Origin: Brevibacillus massiliensis
GTDB lineage: Bacteria > Bacillota > Bacilli > Brevibacillales > Brevibacillaceae
Reading direction: 5' to 3'
NCBI RefSeq assembly: GCF_000311785.1
Contig: NZ_HE978541.1
Span: 173,895 to 237,894, forward strand
Length of the DNA: 64,000 bases
In this document: positions 51,944-62,133 of the stretch, piece by piece
Position numbering within the stretch: the stretch's first letter is position 1
Layout of the letters: every line of letters starts with the position of its first letter
Notes under the pieces: model-generated
The model's database searches: none
What the model saw: the letters and a program-made list of their open reading frames with translations, nothing else
Told to the model about the DNA's origin: nothing
Program-made: the position numbers and the translations under genes

Positions 51944-52135
51944 ATGCCTGTATTAAGAATTGAGATGCTCGAAGGTAGAAGTGAAGAGATGAAGCTTTCT
52001 ATGATCCGCGAGGTAACCGATGCGATGGCTCGCTCTCTCAATATTGAGAAAGAGGAAGTAGACATTATCATAAAAGAAATTAAGAAGAAAGACTGGGCAA
52101 AGGGCGGAGTCACATGGCCATGGAATAAAGACTAG
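51944..52135 (+). CDS. 4-oxalocrotonate tautomerase family enzyme
   Basis: 63 residues, the length of classical 4-OT. After removal of Met the catalytic Pro1 starts PVLRIEMLEGRS, followed by the alpha helix EEMKLSMIREVTDAMARSL and the basic region KEIKKKDWAKGG. These enzymes use the terminal proline as a base in keto-enol tautomerisation. ATG 51944 follows GAGGGGG; the frame runs 15 codons further up without a site. Substrate unknown. Confidence 0.85.
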   Translation: MPVLRIEMLEGRSEEMKLSMIREVTDAMARSLNIEKEEVDIIIKEIKKKDWAKGGVTWPWNKD

Positions 52136-52532
52136 TTGTCCAGATTATCCTCTTCAATACAAGTTAACTCGTCGGAACGGCGGGTTTTTAAGTTAAAACT
52201 GCTTCATGCCTGGTACGTTTTCAATTGGTACGATAAGTATGTCACGCTATCAGGATTACCAGTACTTAAATAAGCTGTTTGAGGGTCACAGTTCCTTTAT
52301 ATTTTGAATATGTTATAATGATTACTATTAAAAGAATTTACTTAATATTATTTTAATTCTAATTATGGTCAATCGGCAGCTATTGTTGACGTACGGGTAT
52401 TTTAAGGGACGTTTGACGAGCCTCTTTATCAAATGGATGGAGGGACACAAAAAACCTCATGGCACAAAACCTTGAAGTTTCAATTTTCGGCTATTGCCGA
52501 GACCTATTTCATGAGTTTAGGAGGGAGTAATC
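52136..52532. other. Intergenic region before xdhC with an extended -10 promoter
   Basis: No gene supported. TGtTATAAT (52311-52319) is a strong extended -10, preceded only by a poor -35, and would start a leader of about 210 bases ahead of the xdhC-like gene. This is the best promoter seen for the cox block. Confidence 0.55.
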
Positions 52533-53582
52533 TTGTCGCGCATTCAAGAAGCACGAGATGTCATGCAAAAAATGAAACAGGCCTGGGAACGCAATCAAAA
52601 AACATCCTTATTAATGATTACTGAGGTGCGTGGGTCGTCTTACCGCCAACCTGGGGCCAAGATGATGATGGCAGCGGATGGAGAAATGTTTGGCACACTA
52701 AGTGGCGGTTGTTTGGAGAACGATTTGTTTGAATGGTCACAAGAAGCAATTAGTCAAAACACCCCTCTCACAAAACAATATGATCTTAGTGAAAATGATC
52801 TATGGTCTTTAGGAATCGGCTGCAAAGGAACATTGGATATCTCGATTATTCCTGTCGATTCTAACGATAGCTTCTGGCAAAGAGCCATCACACTCATACA
52901 AGAAGATCGTCCCGTTTCTCTGATCCTGGAAATTCCGACAGGCGTTCGAGTCCTGCTGGATCAGAATGGAAACGGCTGGGGAGATCTGGATCAGATCCCG
53001 GATGAGGTTCGGAAACAAGCATTGGATCGGACCTTCCACCGAACGCGTGCAGAAGTTATTTCTCTCGGAAATCGCCGGTTTGTTATTGATACCATGAGGC
53101 CCAGTGAACATTTGATTGTAGCGGGTGCCGGTCATGATGCAGTACCCCTTGTTTCTGTCGCTGCAAGTGTTGGATTTTCTGTAACCGTTTTAGATCCTCG
53201 CAAAGACTTTAATACCGCTTTTCGTTTTCCGTCCGTATCCCATCTGGTGGTTGAACCTGACAAAGCAGACCCTGTTGCTTTAAACGACAGCTGGTGGGTC
53301 ATCATGAATCATCAGCAAAGTCGAGATGAAGCTTCGATAGCGCTTGCATTAAAAAGCAACCCGCGCTTTATTGGTGTGTTAGGCCCCCTCTCCCGTACAC
53401 AAGAAATGCTGGCAAACATCGGAGCCAGCCCTACGAGCGGTCCTCTGCACGCACCAATCGGATTGGACTTGGGAGCGGAGACAATTGAAGAAGTAGCTGT
53501 AAGCATTATAGCTGAATTGATGATGGTGAGGAGCGGCAGCAGTGGCAAGCCTCTTTCCGGAAAAGCAAAAATCCATGCGTAA
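52533..53582 (+). CDS. XdhC/CoxI-family molybdenum-enzyme maturation protein
   Basis: 349 residues. N-terminal XdhC region (LLMITEVRGSSYRQPGAKMMMAADGEMFGTLSGGCLENDL), then a Rossmann-like C-terminal domain (LIVAGAGHDAVPLVSVAASVGFSVTVLDPR, IGVLGPLSRTQEM, HAPIGLDLGAETIEEVAVSIIAE). Proteins of this family bind the molybdenum cofactor, help its sulfuration and insert it into molybdenum hydroxylases such as xanthine or CO dehydrogenase. TTG 52533 follows GGAGGG. Overlaps the start of the mocA remnant by eight bases. Confidence 0.88.
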   Translation: MSRIQEARDVMQKMKQAWERNQKTSLLMITEVRGSSYRQPGAKMMMAADGEMFGTLSGGCLENDLFEWSQEAISQNTPLTKQYDLSENDLWSLGIGCKGTLDISIIPVDSNDSFWQRAITLIQEDRPVSLILEIPTGVRVLLDQNGNGWGDLDQIPDEVRKQALDRTFHRTRAEVISLGNRRFVIDTMRPSEHLIVAGAGHDAVPLVSVAASVGFSVTVLDPRKDFNTAFRFPSVSHLVVEPDKADPVALNDSWWVIMNHQQSRDEASIALALKSNPRFIGVLGPLSRTQEMLANIGASPTSGPLHAPIGLDLGAETIEEVAVSIIAELMMVRSGSSGKPLSGKAKIHA

Positions 53583-53797
53583 GTTCGGTGCGGTCATCTT
53601 GGCTGCAGGAATGTCCCGGCGAATGGGGGAACCAAAATTATTCCTGGATTTGAAGGGGGCGATTCATTATTGAGCGCCACGCAGAGAAATGAAAACGAAT
53701 TCCGGTTGAAAATCCCTTGTGGGGGATAGACATCGACACTCCAGAGGATCTGAAGAAATATTTAAATTATTTTTGCTTTGTGATATATTTAATTTGA
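53575..53797 (+). pseudogene. MocA/MobA-like molybdenum cofactor nucleotidyltransferase with internal deletion
   Basis: ATG 53575 opens MRKFGAVILAAGMSRRMGEPKLFL, the NTP-binding loop of MobA/MocA nucleotidyltransferases, but the frame stops at TGA 53671. From about 53699 another frame reads IPVENPLWGIDIDTPEDLKKY, the C-terminal end of the same family, stopping at 53795. Complete proteins are about 200 residues, so some 140 codons between are missing and the ends are in different frames. CO dehydrogenase needs molybdopterin cytosine dinucleotide, which MocA makes. A second copy elsewhere would be required. Confidence 0.8.
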
Positions 53798-53863
53798 TGA
53801 TTCATAACTATCAAAATTATTAGAATACGAGATGGTTAAAACAGGGAGGGGGATTTCAATTTT

Positions 53864-54730
53864 ATGATTCCGAATGCATTTGATTACTACTCACCGACGA
53901 CAGTGGAAGAAACGATTGGATTGCTGCAAAAATACGGTTACGAAGCGAAGATTTTGGCGGGCGGCCAGAGTTTGCTTCCCATGATGAAGTTGCGCGTTGC
54001 GATGCCGTCAGTTTTGGTTGATATCAATCATATTGACGATTTGCATGGCTGGCGTGAAGAGAATGGCTATTTGCGAATAGGGGCGTTGACAAGACATGTC
54101 GATCTCGAAAATGAACAACATTTGAAGGAGAGCTACCCGCTTTTATCGAAAACGGCGGAATGGATTGCGGACGTACCTGTTCGAAATCGGGGTACCATTT
54201 GCGGCTCTCTCGTCCATGCAGATCCGAGTTCTGACTGGGGAGCGGCAATGATTGCCCTGCATGCGGATGTTGAGGTAATCGGTCCATCAGGTATACGGCG
54301 TGTTTTTATCGATGATTTTTTTGTCGATACATTCACCGCGTCGCTTGAGATGGATGAGATTGCATCGGCCGTTTTGATCCCCTCCCCGATTGGCCGTGTT
54401 GGAGCGCGCTACATGAAATTAGAACGTAAAGCAGGAGATTTTGCGATTGTTGGAGTCGCGTTACATGTTATCAAAGCAAATGATGGAACCGTTCTTGATA
54501 GTGGCATTGGTTTGTGCGCATGTGGGGATGTTCCTGTTCGGGCGAAAAAGGCTGAGGAATGGCTAATTGGACGCCCCTTAGATAAGGAAACGATTAAACA
54601 GGCTTCGCTTCTGGCCCAAGAAGACGCGAATCCGGCTACGGATTTGCGCGGCAGTGCAGAGTACAAGCGAGATTTGGTCAGGGTCTTTGTAAAGCGAGGG
54701 CTTGAAGAAATTGCTGATGAACTCCGCTAG
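53864..54730 (+). CDS. coxM: Carbon monoxide dehydrogenase medium subunit (FAD)
   Basis: 288 residues of the FAD-binding subunit of molybdenum hydroxylases. FAD motifs AGGQSLLPMMKLR near residue 32 and NRGTICGSLVHADPSSDW in the middle. The C-terminal CO-dehydrogenase flavoprotein domain follows, with YMKLERKAGDFAIVGVA. It passes electrons from the iron-sulfur subunit to the acceptor (quinone side). ATG 53864 follows GGGAGGGGG at a wide spacing of about 11. It leads the order M-S-L typical of form I CO dehydrogenase. Confidence 0.93.
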   Translation: MIPNAFDYYSPTTVEETIGLLQKYGYEAKILAGGQSLLPMMKLRVAMPSVLVDINHIDDLHGWREENGYLRIGALTRHVDLENEQHLKESYPLLSKTAEWIADVPVRNRGTICGSLVHADPSSDWGAAMIALHADVEVIGPSGIRRVFIDDFFVDTFTASLEMDEIASAVLIPSPIGRVGARYMKLERKAGDFAIVGVALHVIKANDGTVLDSGIGLCACGDVPVRAKKAEEWLIGRPLDKETIKQASLLAQEDANPATDLRGSAEYKRDLVRVFVKRGLEEIADELR

Positions 54731-54778
54731 CATGGTTGTTTGTTACCGATACATGAAACAGGGAGGGACAATGATTTT

Positions 54779-55291
54779 ATGCAGATAAGTGTAACTGTAA
54801 ACGGACGTGTTTATGAATCGGATGTCGAGCCCCGCACGTTGCTTATCTATTACATCAGGGAACACCTGAGACTGACGGGTGCGCATGTCGGATGTGATAC
54901 GACAAGTTGCGGAGCGTGCACTGTATTACTAAACGGAAAGGCTGTCAAATCTTGTACCGTGTTGGCAGTACAAGCTAACGGACAAGAAATCATGACTGTA
55001 GAAGGACTCGAACGTGATGGTGAACTGCATCCTTTGCAAAAAGCATTTTGGGAAGAGCATGGTCTCCAATGCGGATATTGCACACCGGGAATGATCATGA
55101 CAGCATGTGAACTGTTAGAACGAAATCCTTTTCCTACAGAGGAGGAAGTTCGCAAAGGTATCTCTGGAAATGTATGTCGATGCACAGGTTATGTGAACAT
55201 CATAAAAGCAATCCAGTCAGCAGGACATATGATCGCACAGCAAGATAAGGAACCTAAGAATCAATCGGAGGTGGTTCCCAGTGGCAATTAA
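54779..55291 (+). CDS. coxS: Carbon monoxide dehydrogenase small subunit (two 2Fe-2S)
   Basis: 170 residues. The plant-ferredoxin-type cluster is held by [22 protein letters not shown]-like cysteines (about residues 40-62). The second cluster sits in [10 protein letters not shown] and [12 protein letters not shown]. It wires the molybdenum site to FAD. The start is uncertain; ATG 54779 fits the family N-terminus ([10 protein letters not shown]) and has GGGAGGG 11 bases before, like coxM. It overlaps coxL by 11 bases. Confidence 0.93.
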
Positions 55292-57632
55292 TCAAACTGA
55301 ACTTCGGCCGATGGGGAAATCGATTCATCGGAAAGAAGACCCCCGGTTTATTAGAGGTCAAGGTAAATATCTAGACGACATTGTATTGCCAAACATGTTG
55401 TATATGAGTATCGTACGCAGTCCCTATGCTCATGCAAAGATTAAAAGCATAAATACCGAAGCCGCTAAACAGGTTCCCGGAGTGAAATTAATCATCACCG
55501 GTGAAGATTTGGCAAAGATGAATCTTGCTTGGATGCCAACTATGAACGGGGATGTACAAATGGTACTGGCTACCAATAAGGTGCTTTTCCAGTATCAAGA
55601 AGTGGTGGCAGTAGTCGCTGAGACCCGTGGCGCAGCGGTGGATGCAGCTCAATTGGTTGAGGTTGAATATGAGGCGCTGCCTGTCATAGTTGACCCGTTC
55701 CGCGCGTTACAGCCGGATGCTCCTGTATTGCGGGATGATCGTGAAAAGAAAAGCAATCATATCTGGCACTGGGAAGCGGGAGATCAAGAAAGCACAGAAG
55801 AAATTTTCAAAAATGCTCCTGTGGTAGTCAGTCAAGACGTGCGTTTTCAACGAGTTCACCCGTCTCCGTTGGAACCATGTGGATGTATCGCTGATTACAA
55901 AAAGGGAACAGGCAGATTGACATGGTATGTCACTTCACAGGCACCACATGCGCATCGAACAATATTGGCTATGATAAGTGGTCTGCCTGAACATAAGATT
56001 CAAGTCATTTCTCCAGACGTTGGAGGAGGTTTCGGAAACAAAGTTCCTGTCTATCCGGGATATGTATGTGCCCTCGTTGCTTCCATACAATTGGGAATTC
56101 CGGTCAAATGGGTTGAAACCCGCACGGAAAACATTGCAAGCACTGGTTTCGCACGTGATTATCATATGACGTCTGAGATCGCTGCTGATGAAAACGGAAA
56201 GGTATTAGCATTACGAGTGAAAACGATTGCAGACCACGGCGCGTTTGACGCTGCGGCGGATCCTACCAAGTTTCCTGCCGGATTGTTCAGCATCGTAACC
56301 GGTTCCTATGATTTTAAGCAAGCGTTTGTTGAGGTGGACGGCGTTTATACCAATAAGGCACCGGGTGGAGTCGCCTATCGTTGTTCGTTTCGTGTCACGG
56401 AAGCAGCTTATTTAATCGAACGAACGATGGATATATTAGCACGAAAATTAGGCATGGATCCTGCCGAACTGAGATTGCTCAATTTTATCAGGAAAGATCA
56501 GTTTCCCTATCAGTCTCCGACAGGATGGACATATGACAGCGGAGATTATGAGAAGACATTTAGGCTGGCCCTGGAAAAAATCGGTTATCACGAATTGCGA
56601 AAAGAACAGGCGGAGAAACGCGCCCGCGGCGAATTAATGGGAATCGGTATCTCTACATTCACGGAAATTGTTGGTGCTGGTCCTTCCCATTCATTCGATA
56701 TCATGGGGATCAAAATGTTTGACAGTGCTGAAATTCGTGTGCATCCGACCGGAAAAGTGATTGCCCGATTGGGAGTGCGACATCAGGGACAAGGCCATGA
56801 AACGACTTTCGCGCAAATCATCGGAGAAGAACTGGGATTAACCGCAGATGACGTGTTGATTGAAGAAGGTGATACAGATACTGCTCCCTACGGCTTGGGG
56901 ACATATGCAAGCCGCAGTACACCAACAGCAGGAGGAGCTGCAGCACTATGTGCGCGGCGCATCCGGGACAAGGCAAGGAAAATTGCTGCTCACCTGCTGG
57001 AAGTGGGTGACGAGGATATTTCGTGGAATGGAGAGTCATTCGAAGTTAAGGGGACCCCGTCCCGAAAGGTTACGATGGGCGAAGTCGCGTTGGCTGCCTA
57101 TACGAATGTGCCGGAAGGCATGGAGCCTGGTCTGGAAGCTACTTATTATTACGATCCCCCCAATCTGACATTCCCACATGGGGCCTACATTGCGGTTGTG
57201 GATATTGATAAAGGTACCGGAGTTGTTAAAGTACGCCGTTTCCTGGCAGTCGATGACTGTGGAAACGTGATTAACCCTATGATCGTGGAAGGACAGATTC
57301 ATGGTGGTTTGACGGAAGGTTTTGCAATTGCGTTTATGCAAGACATTCCTTTTGACGAGGACGGAAACTGCTTGGCTCCTAACTGGATGGATTATCTTGT
57401 TCCGACTTCCCTTGATACGCCGAATTGGGAAACAGACCGAACGATTACCCCATCGCCACATCATCCAATCGGTGCAAAAGGAGTGGGAGAATCACCCAAT
57501 GTCGGTTCCCCGGCAGCCTTCGTCAATGCTGTTGTGGATGCTCTTGAACCGTTTGGTGTCGAACATATCGACATGCCGATTTTTCCTTGGAAAGTTTGGG
57601 AGATTTTGCGTCAGAACGGGGTAGCTGAATAA
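55281..57632 (+). CDS. coxL: Aerobic carbon monoxide dehydrogenase large subunit, form I
   Basis: 783 residues of molybdenum hydroxylase. The key diagnostic is the active-site loop AYRCSFR at residues 365-371, where C368 carries the copper of the Mo-S-Cu centre; form II (CoxL-like) enzymes do not have it. The active-site Glu is E737 in [12 protein letters not shown]. Start region [23 protein letters not shown] is typical. It oxidises CO with water to CO2, electrons going to CoxS. GTG 55281 follows GGAGGTGG inside coxS. Confidence 0.95.
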
Positions 57633-57660
57633 TTTAAAAGTAAGGAAGTTCTGTGTATGA

Positions 57661-57706
57661 GAGGAGGATGGTCTGACGGGGGACTCCCCGTCAGACACTC
57701 TATATG
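57661..57706 (+). promoter_or_regulatory. Ribosome site separated from coxF start by a perfect hairpin
   Basis: GAGGAGG (57661-57667) lies 36 bases before ATG 57704, beyond the working distance. Between them GTCTGACGGGG (57671-57681) pairs perfectly with CCCCGTCAGAC (57686-57696) around GACT. Folding removes 26 bases and leaves 10 between site and start, a normal distance. A frame ATG-GTC-TGA starts at 57668. No T tract follows. Confidence 0.65.
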
Positions 57707-58675
57707 GTTAATATCTGGAAAGAAGCAGCTCGATTAGAAGAAACACGGGAACCGTTTGCTGTTGTTACCGTTATTCGAAGCGTAAAACCCACTTCAGCTG
57801 TTGTCGGTGCAAAAGCGTTGATTAAATCATCGGGAGAGATGATAGGTTTTGTTGGCGGTCAATGTACACAATCCCTCGTAATTTCACAAGCATTGAAATG
57901 TATCGAAAAAGGGATCAGTCAGATTGTGCTGATCACGTCTGATACACCGCAGACCCGTACGGACGATATAATCGTTTTGCCGATGACCTGCCACTCGGAG
58001 GGGACAGTTGAATTGTTTATTGAGCCAAAGATTCCGGCGCCCGTTTTACTGATTATCGGTCATTCTCCAATTGCTGACTATTTGAAAAAAACAGCGGCTT
58101 ACCTGGATTTTCAAATTAGAACCGTGGGATTGGAAAATGTACATTCTGAAGGCACATCCAGCCTTTCCGGATTCACGGAAACCATTCAAGCGAATCTGTC
58201 ACCGGGAGCATTTGTAGTTGTCGCATCAATGGGTCTTTATGATGTTGAAAGCATTCGGGCGTTACAAGGCTTTGCGCTTTCTTATGTGGGTTTGGTTACA
58301 AGTCCCAAAAGACGAGAAGCAGTATTGAACGATTTGAAGAACCAGGGAGTTTCGGAAGAGTTTTGTTCCTTTATTTCTGCTCCGGTAGGATTAGATTTGG
58401 GTGCTGTTGACCCTGCCGAAATTGCGATTACGATATTGGCGGAAATAATCGAATACAGAAGGAAGAGACGTACTTTTGCTCCCTTTACGTCACATGTAAT
58501 AGAGAACAAGACGCGGCGGGAAGTGATCGATCCGATTTGTCATATGGTGGTGGATTTGAATACGACTCTCCATAAAGCGGAATACCAAGGCAAGGAATAT
58601 GGTTTTTGTTGTCCGCGTTGTCGCCAGGAATTTTTGAATAAACCAGAAAAATATGCATACACGGTAGAAGTGTAA
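57704..58675 (+). CDS. coxF: XdhC/CoxF-family maturation protein with C-terminal YHS domain
   Basis: 323 residues. XdhC N-terminus (REPFAVVTVIRSVKPTSAVVGAKALI, GFVGGQCTQSLV), a Rossmann-like part (VLLIIGHSPIADYLKKTAAYL, LVTSPKRREAV, APVGLDLGAVDPAEIAITILAEI) and an added YHS domain at residues about 278-323 (DPICHMVVDLNTTLHKAEYQGKEYGFCCPRCRQEF). YHS domains bind metal, often copper or heavy metals; here it might take part in copper handling for the Mo-Cu site (inference). No start upstream is possible because of TGA 57674 in frame. Confidence 0.87.
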   Translation: MVNIWKEAARLEETREPFAVVTVIRSVKPTSAVVGAKALIKSSGEMIGFVGGQCTQSLVISQALKCIEKGISQIVLITSDTPQTRTDDIIVLPMTCHSEGTVELFIEPKIPAPVLLIIGHSPIADYLKKTAAYLDFQIRTVGLENVHSEGTSSLSGFTETIQANLSPGAFVVVASMGLYDVESIRALQGFALSYVGLVTSPKRREAVLNDLKNQGVSEEFCSFISAPVGLDLGAVDPAEIAITILAEIIEYRRKRRTFAPFTSHVIENKTRREVIDPICHMVVDLNTTLHKAEYQGKEYGFCCPRCRQEFLNKPEKYAYTVEV

Positions 58676-58795
58676 CATTGCTTCGGTTGGAATACGTCAA
58701 ACATTTTCAAAACAAAAATCCAAAAGAGCAACTTCACCCTGGAATTGTCTGAACCAAATTGGTAGCTGCTCTTATTATACAAGGAGGAATTATCA

Positions 58796-59281
58796 TTGAA
58801 GAATTACAGTGGTGATTTTACAATTCCGGTGTCCCGCGAAATGGTATGGAATTTTATTATGGATCCGCACAAGGTGGGGCCATGTTTGCCAGATTTGTTA
58901 AAGATGGACGTATCTGACAACTTCAATTTTCGCGCAAAAGTGCGTGTTGGTCTAGGTCCAGTTCGTGGGTCATTTGATTTGGACACCGTTTTAACGGTAG
59001 AGGAACCGGAAAAGTCGGCTTCCATGTCGGTTAAGGGTGGAGGCATGGGAAGCGGGATCAATATGAGCGCAAAATTATTTTTGGAAGATCTGGAAGATCA
59101 GCAGGGTACTTTATTGAAATGGACTTGTGATGTTGTGGTCAGCGGTCCGATCGCCACTATTGGAGGACGTTTGATTGACGGGCAAGCTCGCAAGATTACG
59201 CAACAGGTGTTTGAGAACATTCAAAATGCGTTGGTCTCCTTGAAAAGCGAAGTTGCGGTAACAAAAGAGGAAACAGAATGA
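58796..59281 (+). CDS. coxG: CoxG-family carbon monoxide dehydrogenase accessory protein (SRPBCC fold)
   Basis: 161 residues, one SRPBCC/CoxG domain: GDFTIPVSREMVWNFIMDPHKVGPCLPDL, RVGLGPVRGSFDLD, GGMGSGINMSAKLFLED and GGRLIDGQARKITQQVFENI. CoxG is required in other carboxydotrophs for membrane attachment of the enzyme and electron flow to the quinone pool. TTG 58796 follows AAGGAGG. The stop overlaps coxD by four bases. Confidence 0.9.
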   Translation: MKNYSGDFTIPVSREMVWNFIMDPHKVGPCLPDLLKMDVSDNFNFRAKVRVGLGPVRGSFDLDTVLTVEEPEKSASMSVKGGGMGSGINMSAKLFLEDLEDQQGTLLKWTCDVVVSGPIATIGGRLIDGQARKITQQVFENIQNALVSLKSEVAVTKEETE

Positions 59282-60144
59282 ACGAAGAAATTAAGATTTT
59301 ACAAGAAGAAATGCGCCGAGCACGTTATGTAGCGGATCAGGCACTGACAACAGTACTGTATTTGGCGGAGCGTCTAGGGCGCTCCATTCTTATGGAAGGG
59401 CCTGCCGGCGTTGGAAAAACGGAATTGGCGAAAGTGATGGCGGAAATTCGCGGAGTTGAACTCATTCGATTGCAGTGTTATGAAGGATTGGATGCTGCCC
59501 ATGCTTTATATGATTGGGATTATCCAAAACAGTTGTTAACGGCACGTACTGTCATAGAAGGACAGGATCAAGGAAAGATCTCAACAGATATCTATACGGA
59601 GGAGTATTTGATAGAGCGTCCTCTTCTTAAAACATTGCGCAGAGAACCCTCGCCCGTTTTACTGATTGATGAGGTGGATCGGGCGGACGAGGAGTTTGAA
59701 GCGTTGCTATTGGAATTTTTGGCGGAATTTCAAATTACGATTCCGGAAATTGGTTCGTTCCGTGCTCAAAATCCACCTATGGTGATTCTGACTTCCAATC
59801 GTACCCGGGATCTTTCAGATGCTCTAAGAAGGCGTTGTCTATACTTTTGGCTTGACTATCCGAGCCTGGAACGCGAAGTAGAAATTATAAAATTGCGTGT
59901 GCCAGGATTAGCTGAAGAGTTGATCCGTCAAATTGTTCGGGCCGTGCGCCAAATGAGGCAGTGGTCTTTGTTAAAACCGCCTGGAATGGCCGAATCAATT
60001 GATTGGGCACAGGCATTAGAGGAGTTGGATACAGGTAAACTTGATGAAGAAATCATATCCCATACATTGGGGTGTGTTCTAAAGACGCAAGAAGATATGG
60101 AGTTTGTCTATCAGAAAGGTTTGACACTTCTATGGAAGTCCTAG
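59278..60144 (+). CDS. coxD: MoxR-type AAA+ ATPase CoxD
   Basis: 288 residues. Walker A EGPAGVGKTELAKVM, Walker B PVLLIDEVDRADEEFE, sensor 1 VILTSNRTRDLSDALRRRC. In Oligotropha CoxD builds the [CuSMoO2] centre by sulfuration and copper insertion into apo-CO dehydrogenase, with CoxE and CoxF. ATG 59278 overlaps coxG; the end overlaps coxE by 13 bases. Confidence 0.93.
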   Translation: MNEEIKILQEEMRRARYVADQALTTVLYLAERLGRSILMEGPAGVGKTELAKVMAEIRGVELIRLQCYEGLDAAHALYDWDYPKQLLTARTVIEGQDQGKISTDIYTEEYLIERPLLKTLRREPSPVLLIDEVDRADEEFEALLLEFLAEFQITIPEIGSFRAQNPPMVILTSNRTRDLSDALRRRCLYFWLDYPSLEREVEIIKLRVPGLAEELIRQIVRAVRQMRQWSLLKPPGMAESIDWAQALEELDTGKLDEEIISHTLGCVLKTQEDMEFVYQKGLTLLWKS

Positions 60145-61256
60145 ATGTTCTGCCAAGACAGGTTGGCCTTTTGTCTGGAAGGATCATAGAACAGGTACAA
60201 AGTTTTGCACCATTTCTAAGACAATACGGATTTCGGGTAGGAACTCCTGAAAGCCTGACGGCAATCGCCGCGTTATCGGCAATTGAGATCGAGTCGATGG
60301 AACAAGTTATGAATACAATGCGCTCCATCTATGTGAAAAATCCGGCAGAATGGGGGATATTTCCGAGCCTGTTCAAACGTCATTTCGGGATTTTACAGCA
60401 CCAATTGAAACAAACAACCGTTATGGAAGATGATACTGGACTACAACAATTGGGGAATTTCTCGGTTGAGACCTCTTCATCACTTCAGATTGAAGGAGCC
60501 ATGCTAAGAGCATACAATCCCGACCATGGTCAGCGTTACGCCCTTCAACTAATAAAAGAGGGTCAGTTAAGTCAAATCTTGTTTTGGACAAAGAAAGCTG
60601 CCCTTCAATTTGAAAGCCCGCGTAGCCGACGTTTACAAGCGGGCCGACGGGTTCAGATCGATTTTCGGCGAACATTGCGCAAAGCCATGAAAAATGGGGG
60701 AGATCCTTTTGTTATTTATCATCGCAAATATCGAAGGGCTCGCCCGAGAATTGTTATTGTGACAGATATTTCAGGGTCGATGAAAGAATATGCCAATTTT
60801 TTTACCACTATTGCCTGGGCATTTATGCACTCCAAGGCACGTGTGGAATCATTTGTGTTTAGTACAGATATAAAGCGTATCACACCGCTCTTATCACGTA
60901 AAATCGTCCAAGGCATTCCCTTTGAACAATTGATTGAGCTAAAAGGAGGTACACGTATTGGATTTTGTCTGTCACGTCTTGCCAATCGATATGGAAGTTT
61001 GTTACGGAGAAAGACATGCCTCATGATTGTTTCGGATGGATATGATACGGGAAATCCACAAATTTTAAAACGAGCGATGGAATCGCTTTCCGGGCAGGTA
61101 GGCAATATTGTATGGGTCAATCCGTTACTTGGGGAAGAAGGATATGAACCTGTGGCAACAGGAATGAGCACAGCTCTTCCTTATGTTGATCGATTTGTCG
61201 ATGTCCATGATCTGGAATCATGGATTGAGGCTGTTAGGCTGAATCTTTTTTCATAA
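60132..61256 (+). CDS. coxE: CoxE, VWA-domain partner of CoxD
   Basis: 374 residues. A helical N-terminal part precedes a DUF58/VWA-CoxE domain. The metal-ion-dependent adhesion motif is VIVTDISGSMKEY (DxSxS), followed by FVFSTDIKRITPLL, LKGGTRIGFCLSRL and IVSDGYDTGNP. MoxR/VWA pairs act as chaperones for metal-centre insertion. ATG 60132 is chosen from the family start MEVLDVLP; it overlaps the coxD stop. Confidence 0.9.
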   Translation: MEVLDVLPRQVGLLSGRIIEQVQSFAPFLRQYGFRVGTPESLTAIAALSAIEIESMEQVMNTMRSIYVKNPAEWGIFPSLFKRHFGILQHQLKQTTVMEDDTGLQQLGNFSVETSSSLQIEGAMLRAYNPDHGQRYALQLIKEGQLSQILFWTKKAALQFESPRSRRLQAGRRVQIDFRRTLRKAMKNGGDPFVIYHRKYRRARPRIVIVTDISGSMKEYANFFTTIAWAFMHSKARVESFVFSTDIKRITPLLSRKIVQGIPFEQLIELKGGTRIGFCLSRLANRYGSLLRRKTCLMIVSDGYDTGNPQILKRAMESLSGQVGNIVWVNPLLGEEGYEPVATGMSTALPYVDRFVDVHDLESWIEAVRLNLFS

Positions 61257-61272
61257 ATCGGAGGGATGAGTC

Positions 61273-62133
61273 ATGTCGTTCTTCCCATTCATCCTACAAT
61301 CCGACTCGGCATGGAACGTGGATTTGATATTTCTAATTTCATTCCTGTTCATAGGATATGTGTTGCTAACAGGAGATTGGCTTGGACGCTTAGTTCCTGG
61401 GGAAACCAAAGTCTCCTCGAAGCAAAAGGCATGCTTTGCGATCGGTTTGCTGCTGTTCTTGATTTGTTGGGCAAGTCCGCTGTATCTGTTAAGCCATGTG
61501 ATCTTCAGCATACACATGCTGCAGATGAGTATCCTTTACTTTTTTGCCACTCCGCTGCTGATTTTGGGGATTCCCGCAGGAATTCTGCAGCCTTTTCGAA
61601 AGTTCATTTTTTTTCAAAAAGTTTGGCGGTTTTTGACGCGCTCCGTAATAGCCCTCATAATGTTCAATGGGCTTTTTATTCTTTACCACATACCAGTGGT
61701 GATGGATGAAATCATGACGAACCGGATGTTACATACTGGATTTTATGGCCTACTCTTGGTCTCATCTGTCTGGTTATGGTGGCCCGTTGTCAATCCGATC
61801 ATGAAAAACCGATTGCAGGACAAACAAAGGAAAAAATTCGCTCGGGCAAACACTTTGGTGCTCATGCCGGCGTGTTTGCTTCTTCTATCTTCTTTTGTAA
61901 AATATGATGTATTTGTTCATGTGCAAACGCAAATGAACATGTTTGGACTATGCTATCCGCACCCGATCGATCTCGAGGATTTGTTGCAAGTTCATTATTT
62001 AACACCCGTTTATGATCAGAAATTGGGTGGTCTGATCATGATGGTTCTTCATAAGTTGTCCTTTATGGTAGTGGAAAGAACAAGCTCTTATCAAATACGA
62101 CAGGGGAAACGGTTGGAGGTCATTGTTGATTGA
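61273..62133 (+). CDS. ctaG: CtaG-type cytochrome c oxidase assembly protein
   Basis: 286 residues with seven or so membrane helices (LIFLISFLFIGYVLL, ACFAIGLLLFLICWASPLYLL, HVIFSIHMLQMSILYFFATPLLILGIPAG and more). The caa3_CtaG family helps assemble heme-copper oxidases, probably through copper at CuA/CuB. ATG 61273 follows GGAGGGATG, only 16 bases after coxE, so it belongs to the cox operon. The last 30 residues (VLHKLSFMVVERTSSYQIRQ) diverge from the usual helical end after DQKLGGLIM. Confidence 0.87.
   Translation: MSFFPFILQSDSAWNVDLIFLISFLFIGYVLLTGDWLGRLVPGETKVSSKQKACFAIGLLLFLICWASPLYLLSHVIFSIHMLQMSILYFFATPLLILGIPAGILQPFRKFIFFQKVWRFLTRSVIALIMFNGLFILYHIPVVMDEIMTNRMLHTGFYGLLLVSSVWLWWPVVNPIMKNRLQDKQRKKFARANTLVLMPACLLLLSSFVKYDVFVHVQTQMNMFGLCYPHPIDLEDLLQVHYLTPVYDQKLGGLIMMVLHKLSFMVVERTSSYQIRQGKRLEVIVD

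Follow-up and report, generated by a model that had tools for sequence, protein, structure and literature searches.

The window, the whole 64,000-nucleotide stretch of Brevibacillus massiliensis DNA analysed here, comes from a carbon-monoxide-oxidising bacterium and carries coxF as part of a form-I CO-dehydrogenase operon with the gene order coxMSLFGDE. The translation of coxL, which adjoins coxF upstream, contains the motif AYRCSFR (read directly), which we take to be the form-I CO dehydrogenase motif. The nearest relatives of the window coxF include those of Brevibacillus thermoruber 423 and Brevibacillus sp. SYP-B805. Downstream, coxG has an ordinary proximal Shine-Dalgarno (SD) sequence, aaggagg before TTG 58796. 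In Oligotropha, CoxF is a CO dehydrogenase maturation factor for which copper supply has been proposed (PMC4240915). The features of the operon and of the coxF start are these:

55281..57632, + strand: coxL, aerobic CO dehydrogenase large subunit (Pfam MoCoBD_1, MoCoBD_2 and Ald_Xan_dh_C)
57661..57667, + strand: GAGGAGG, distal SD of coxF (anti-SD pairing -12.0 kcal/mol)
57668..57676, + strand: mini-frame ATG GTC TGA, probably incidental (read directly)
57671..57696, + strand: spacer hairpin GTCTGACGGGG-GACT-CCCCGTCAGAC, 11 perfect bp and a 4-nt loop (from folding and covariation)
57697..57703, + strand: unpaired 7-nt link from stem to start codon (in relatives, the core stem ends about 5-9 nt before the ATG)
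57704..58675, + strand: coxF, 323 aa, start ATG 57704 (Pfam XdhC_CoxI, XdhC Rossmann and YHS)
58796..61256, + strand: coxG, coxD and coxE, the remainder of the operon (Pfam; gene order the same in relatives)

Read from its first GTG, the listed coxE frame shares about 70 nt with the end of coxD (window 60072-60144), and its true start may be internal. Upstream of coxM, window 53542-53862 holds a mocA-like (molybdenum-cofactor nucleotidyltransferase) remnant with the N-terminal GAVILAAGMSRRMGEPKLFLDLKG followed by stop codons. Since relatives carry coxI and mocA on the other strand (L099, L100), this segment seems to have been inverted and to have decayed.

The first-pass annotation had proposed that the perfect hairpin brings a distant ribosome site to the coxF start, and the coordinates bear out its geometry: the gap from SD to ATG 57704 is 36 nt in linear sequence and 10 nt once the hairpin is folded out. 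It was also right that no proximal site precedes the start, the best anti-SD pairing near the coxF ATG being +0.4 kcal/mol versus -12.0 kcal/mol for the distal site. The upstream in-frame TGA that it had cited against a longer protein is present (57674-57676), with no in-frame start codon between it and the ATG, so coxF starts at 57704 or later. Homologous proteins align with coxF from residue 1, and the predicted start of translation is ATG 57704 itself.

The isolated spacer folds at -23 kcal/mol, a value equalled by 0 of 500 shuffles, and the hairpin is still dominant when a longer context is folded, with 11.7 expected pairs within the spacer. In that longer fold the window SD is unpaired only to about one half, and the start codon is able to pair with its flanks; predicted longer folds in some homologues also pair part of the SD or AUG. 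Accessibility of the two elements in these predicted longer folds is therefore modelled as not ideal. In L006, L008, L056, L060 and L063 the SD is directly preceded by a weak, conserved motif (approximately gccAACCTGgat) that could pair with it.

We searched 1663 genomes for relatives, using protein searches plus one RNA-model search. Within the same class this gave 25 full-length coxF loci (the window included) from 25 species in eight families, with protein identity down to about 40-45%. The layout, a strong distal SD followed by a hairpin and then the ATG, is kept in all 25. A small hairpin occupies the spacer in 23 of them, where the linear SD-to-ATG distance of 36-40 nt falls to about 7-14 nt after folding, a range that counts the core stem only; seven loci leave 2-5 nt when outer minimum-energy pairs are counted as well. 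Values for G781, G717, G789 and G790, whose stems the contiguous-stem algorithm placed wrongly, come from the minimum-energy fold. Distal anti-SD pairing lies between -11.7 and -12.6 kcal/mol across loci, and among the 23 loci scored no proximal site pairs more strongly than -5.6 kcal/mol, the sites that reach this value falling inside the stem; proximal sites of G941 and G965, not among these 23, were judged by eye. The gap between the coxL stop and the coxF start varies from 62 to 205 nt in hairpin loci with the SD-hairpin-ATG unit unchanged, which ties the hairpin to coxF initiation and not to the end of coxL. Since the linear spacing hardly varies either, constant folded spacing is by itself no proof of looping. 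The annotation's further suggestion of coupling through the mini-frame M-V-stop was dropped: ATG GTC TGA occurs in only three of the 25 loci (G000, G005 and G027) and is absent from G011 and from all other families. In a relative of G078, genome G059 (L096), coxF matches only from about residue 95 on and coxM, coxS and coxL were not found in the fetched upstream stretch; its operon looks decayed.

The stem sequence has been largely replaced between families (GTCTGACGGGG in Brevibacillus, GGCCCGGCGGT in G078, GGCCCGGAGGC in G080 and GTTCCGGCAGGGG in G626). In an alignment of 20 homologues, 90% of stem cells pair, and the comparison for compensatory changes that the first-pass annotation had called for came out in its favour, with eight of the 11 stem pairs doubly changed (39 cells). 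The covariation score of 0.485 is about twice that of shuffled alignments (0.230, sd 0.026), none of 500 shuffles reaching it, and control stems with slid partners scored 0.06-0.195. Some stem columns keep their sequence, alignment pairs 17-41 and 19-39 being invariant. The loop is 3-6 nt long across loci and varies freely in sequence.

We compared these loci with the sister class, in which 15 coxF genes have an SD at the normal distance and no spacer hairpin. Several of these SDs overlap the coxL stop or come directly after it, and the SD is weak in a few loci (G895, G887). Relatives that have a normal site but lack the hairpin had been named beforehand as the pattern that would count against a structural bridge. 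Such relatives do occur, but the hairpin is missing precisely from those with a proximal SD, in keeping with the proposed bridge. One sister-class locus, G884, resembled a split site; its spacer, however, forms better pairing with sequence that lies upstream, and the locus was left as doubtful. The protein tree requires two state changes, the second of which is the doubtful G884; the tree omits the sister-class locus G917 (a near duplicate without a hairpin), and G878, G886 and G922, whose starts are ambiguous, were left unclassified. This comparison indicates that hairpin and distal SD were gained or lost together.

The two remaining loci of the 25, in G445 and G941 of the same genus, carry a 119-bp palindromic repeat of the GAGGCTGACTCA...TGAGTCAGCCTC type in place of the coxF spacer hairpin (L089, L195, L196), and the linear SD-to-ATG distance is 134 nt in G445 and 135 nt in G941. 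Their congener G965 keeps an ordinary small hairpin, AAGGAGGGGAAAG-CCCGGTGGCG-CTAA-CGCCGCCGGG-GTATACAAA-ATG. The flanks are near-identical in all three, so that the hairpin alone has been exchanged. The repeat has at least 40 copies in the G445 genome, and its outer arms are identical between G445 and G941. Compared with the other copies of the G445 genome, the one at coxF shows no better folding, so continued function of the repeat is plausible only and selection on it unproven. We hold it to be an even call whether a mobile-type palindrome replaced the native hairpin in this genus while the 30S subunit still initiates coxF across the 134-135-nt gap, in which case any hairpin would suffice, including one that is transposon-like and exceeds the native length about fourfold.

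The window hairpin itself is single-copy in the 5.06-Mb genome (at up to 3 mismatches). A REP-like repeat was rejected as an identity for it in the window genome, given the one copy; a repeat is found at the site only in G445 and G941. Rfam gave no relevant match within window 52000-62000. A strict scan for a strong SD, a stem of at least 9 bp and a start codon, run over 800 kb of the window genome and one relative, gave no ATG-started match; it gave two non-ATG matches, and the one in G078 falls within a reading frame that stays open further upstream. A covariance model built from the coxF loci and run over 398 class genomes found coxF starts in 20 genomes, most of them loci that had trained the model, so that the search speaks for absence elsewhere and not for independent recovery. 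Its two additional matches (G096, G721) are weak, and neither resembles a gene start.

Taken together, these observations make it very probable, as judged from sequence, that coxF, a cellular gene, has a split ribosome-binding site and initiates with the help of mRNA structure, in the manner of phage T4 genes 38 and 25. The claim is strongly supported by the layout in 25 species, the stem covariation, the fixed SD-to-ATG geometry and the lack of a hairpin where the SD is proximal. Several features of a split site of this T4 type are found here: a distant strong SD, no usable near SD, a stem that restores the spacing, and compensatory change. The 30S subunit would pair with the strong SD 36 nt upstream of the coxF AUG, and the GC-rich hairpin would remain folded, kept outside the mRNA path. 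The leftover single-stranded spacer (10 nt in the window, about 7-14 nt in relatives) would then set the AUG in the P site. Selection would act on the fold and not on the hairpin sequence. We infer that the hairpin stays intact while the distal SD serves initiation, and the split site may also tune how much CoxF is made, independently of coxL, the cistron upstream.

The most serious competitor, which we nonetheless consider unlikely, is that the hairpin is chiefly regulatory, a protein or a structural change switching coxF translation beyond any setting of distance. A split site offers an obvious place for control, and in several loci the SD is predicted to pair weakly with bases upstream of it. 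In Oligotropha, CoxD, CoxE and CoxF have been reported to depend on one another for protein appearance though their genes are transcribed (PMC4240915). The few invariant stem positions would also allow a protein ligand, but the free variation of the loop and the replacement of much of the stem between families argue against a specific ligand site, as does the unrelated palindromic repeat that takes the hairpin's place in two species. A thermosensor would need a less stable stem, since the model keeps this one folded even at 60 C.

Readings that make the position before coxF incidental fare worse. It is quite improbable that the hairpin is a REP-like 3' stabiliser of the coxMSL message, or a processing barrier that would leave less coxFGDE than coxMSL: such a role has no need for an SD on the far side or for loss of the hairpin wherever the SD is proximal, and the hairpin keeps its place relative to SD and ATG while its distance from the coxL stop varies. 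In its favour, the stem is GC-rich and stable and sits in a place typical of such elements, at the boundary of the structural and the maturation genes, and Thermomicrobium roseum has a large hairpin of about 17 bp directly after the coxL stop, before coxF and without a clear SD (L081 2865-2946). The same stability and intergenic position would suit a transcription terminator or attenuator stem, but no locus read has a T-run 3' of the stem and a terminator scan was silent; an intrinsic terminator was rejected, and we give this the lowest probability of all. Scarcely more credible is chance or an annotation artefact, with the true coxF start elsewhere and the hairpin incidental, given that homologues align from Met 57704 behind an in-frame stop and that conservation and covariation extend over eight families.

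A split, hairpin-bridged ribosome site in coxF would bear on how general this device may be. Hairpin looping between SD and start has been a textbook curiosity based mainly on two phage genes, and within the literature searched only these two T4 genes have experimental demonstration of it. Retention in eight families, compensatory evolution and a natural hairpin swap would instead point to a stable gene-expression design and not a phage oddity. The hairpins of the coxF loci, 9-14 bp long and in one case 118 nt, form a natural set for testing how much structure the 30S mRNA path holds. Start finders that rely on spacing would treat such genes as lacking a ribosome site.

The closest known systems are the T4 genes. 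Gene 38, correctly named as a precedent in the first-pass annotation, has an SD-AUG distance of 22 nt that a hairpin cuts to 5 nt, and in gene 25 a stem-loop cuts the spacing from 27 to 11 nt (PMC3014915). Both are supported by mutants and probing, gene 25 by reporters and DMS, and close relatives that form one clade share the gene 25 stem-loop, which more distant ones lack (PMC3014915). The coxF hairpin resembles that of gene 38 in shortening the SD-AUG distance, though gene 38 has a shorter spacing and is a single phage gene. It shares with gene 25 a stem-loop between a distal SD and the AUG; gene 25, however, is a phage gene with a shorter linear spacing and experimental support, whereas coxF is a chromosomal gene whose split site is predicted from sequence, has a linear spacing of 36-40 nt (134-135 nt in two species), and shows large-scale turnover of its stem sequence. 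In E. coli thrS, a hairpin lies between the SD, which remains beside the AUG, and a single-stranded domain further upstream that contacts the ribosome; in coxF, by contrast, the SD itself lies on the hairpin's far side. The thrS hairpin lies within the ribosome-binding region and is accommodated there in its folded state (PMC3936740). The principle is thus already known; the coxF instance is new as far as the open-licence literature was searched, and its depth of conservation is unusual for a cellular gene.
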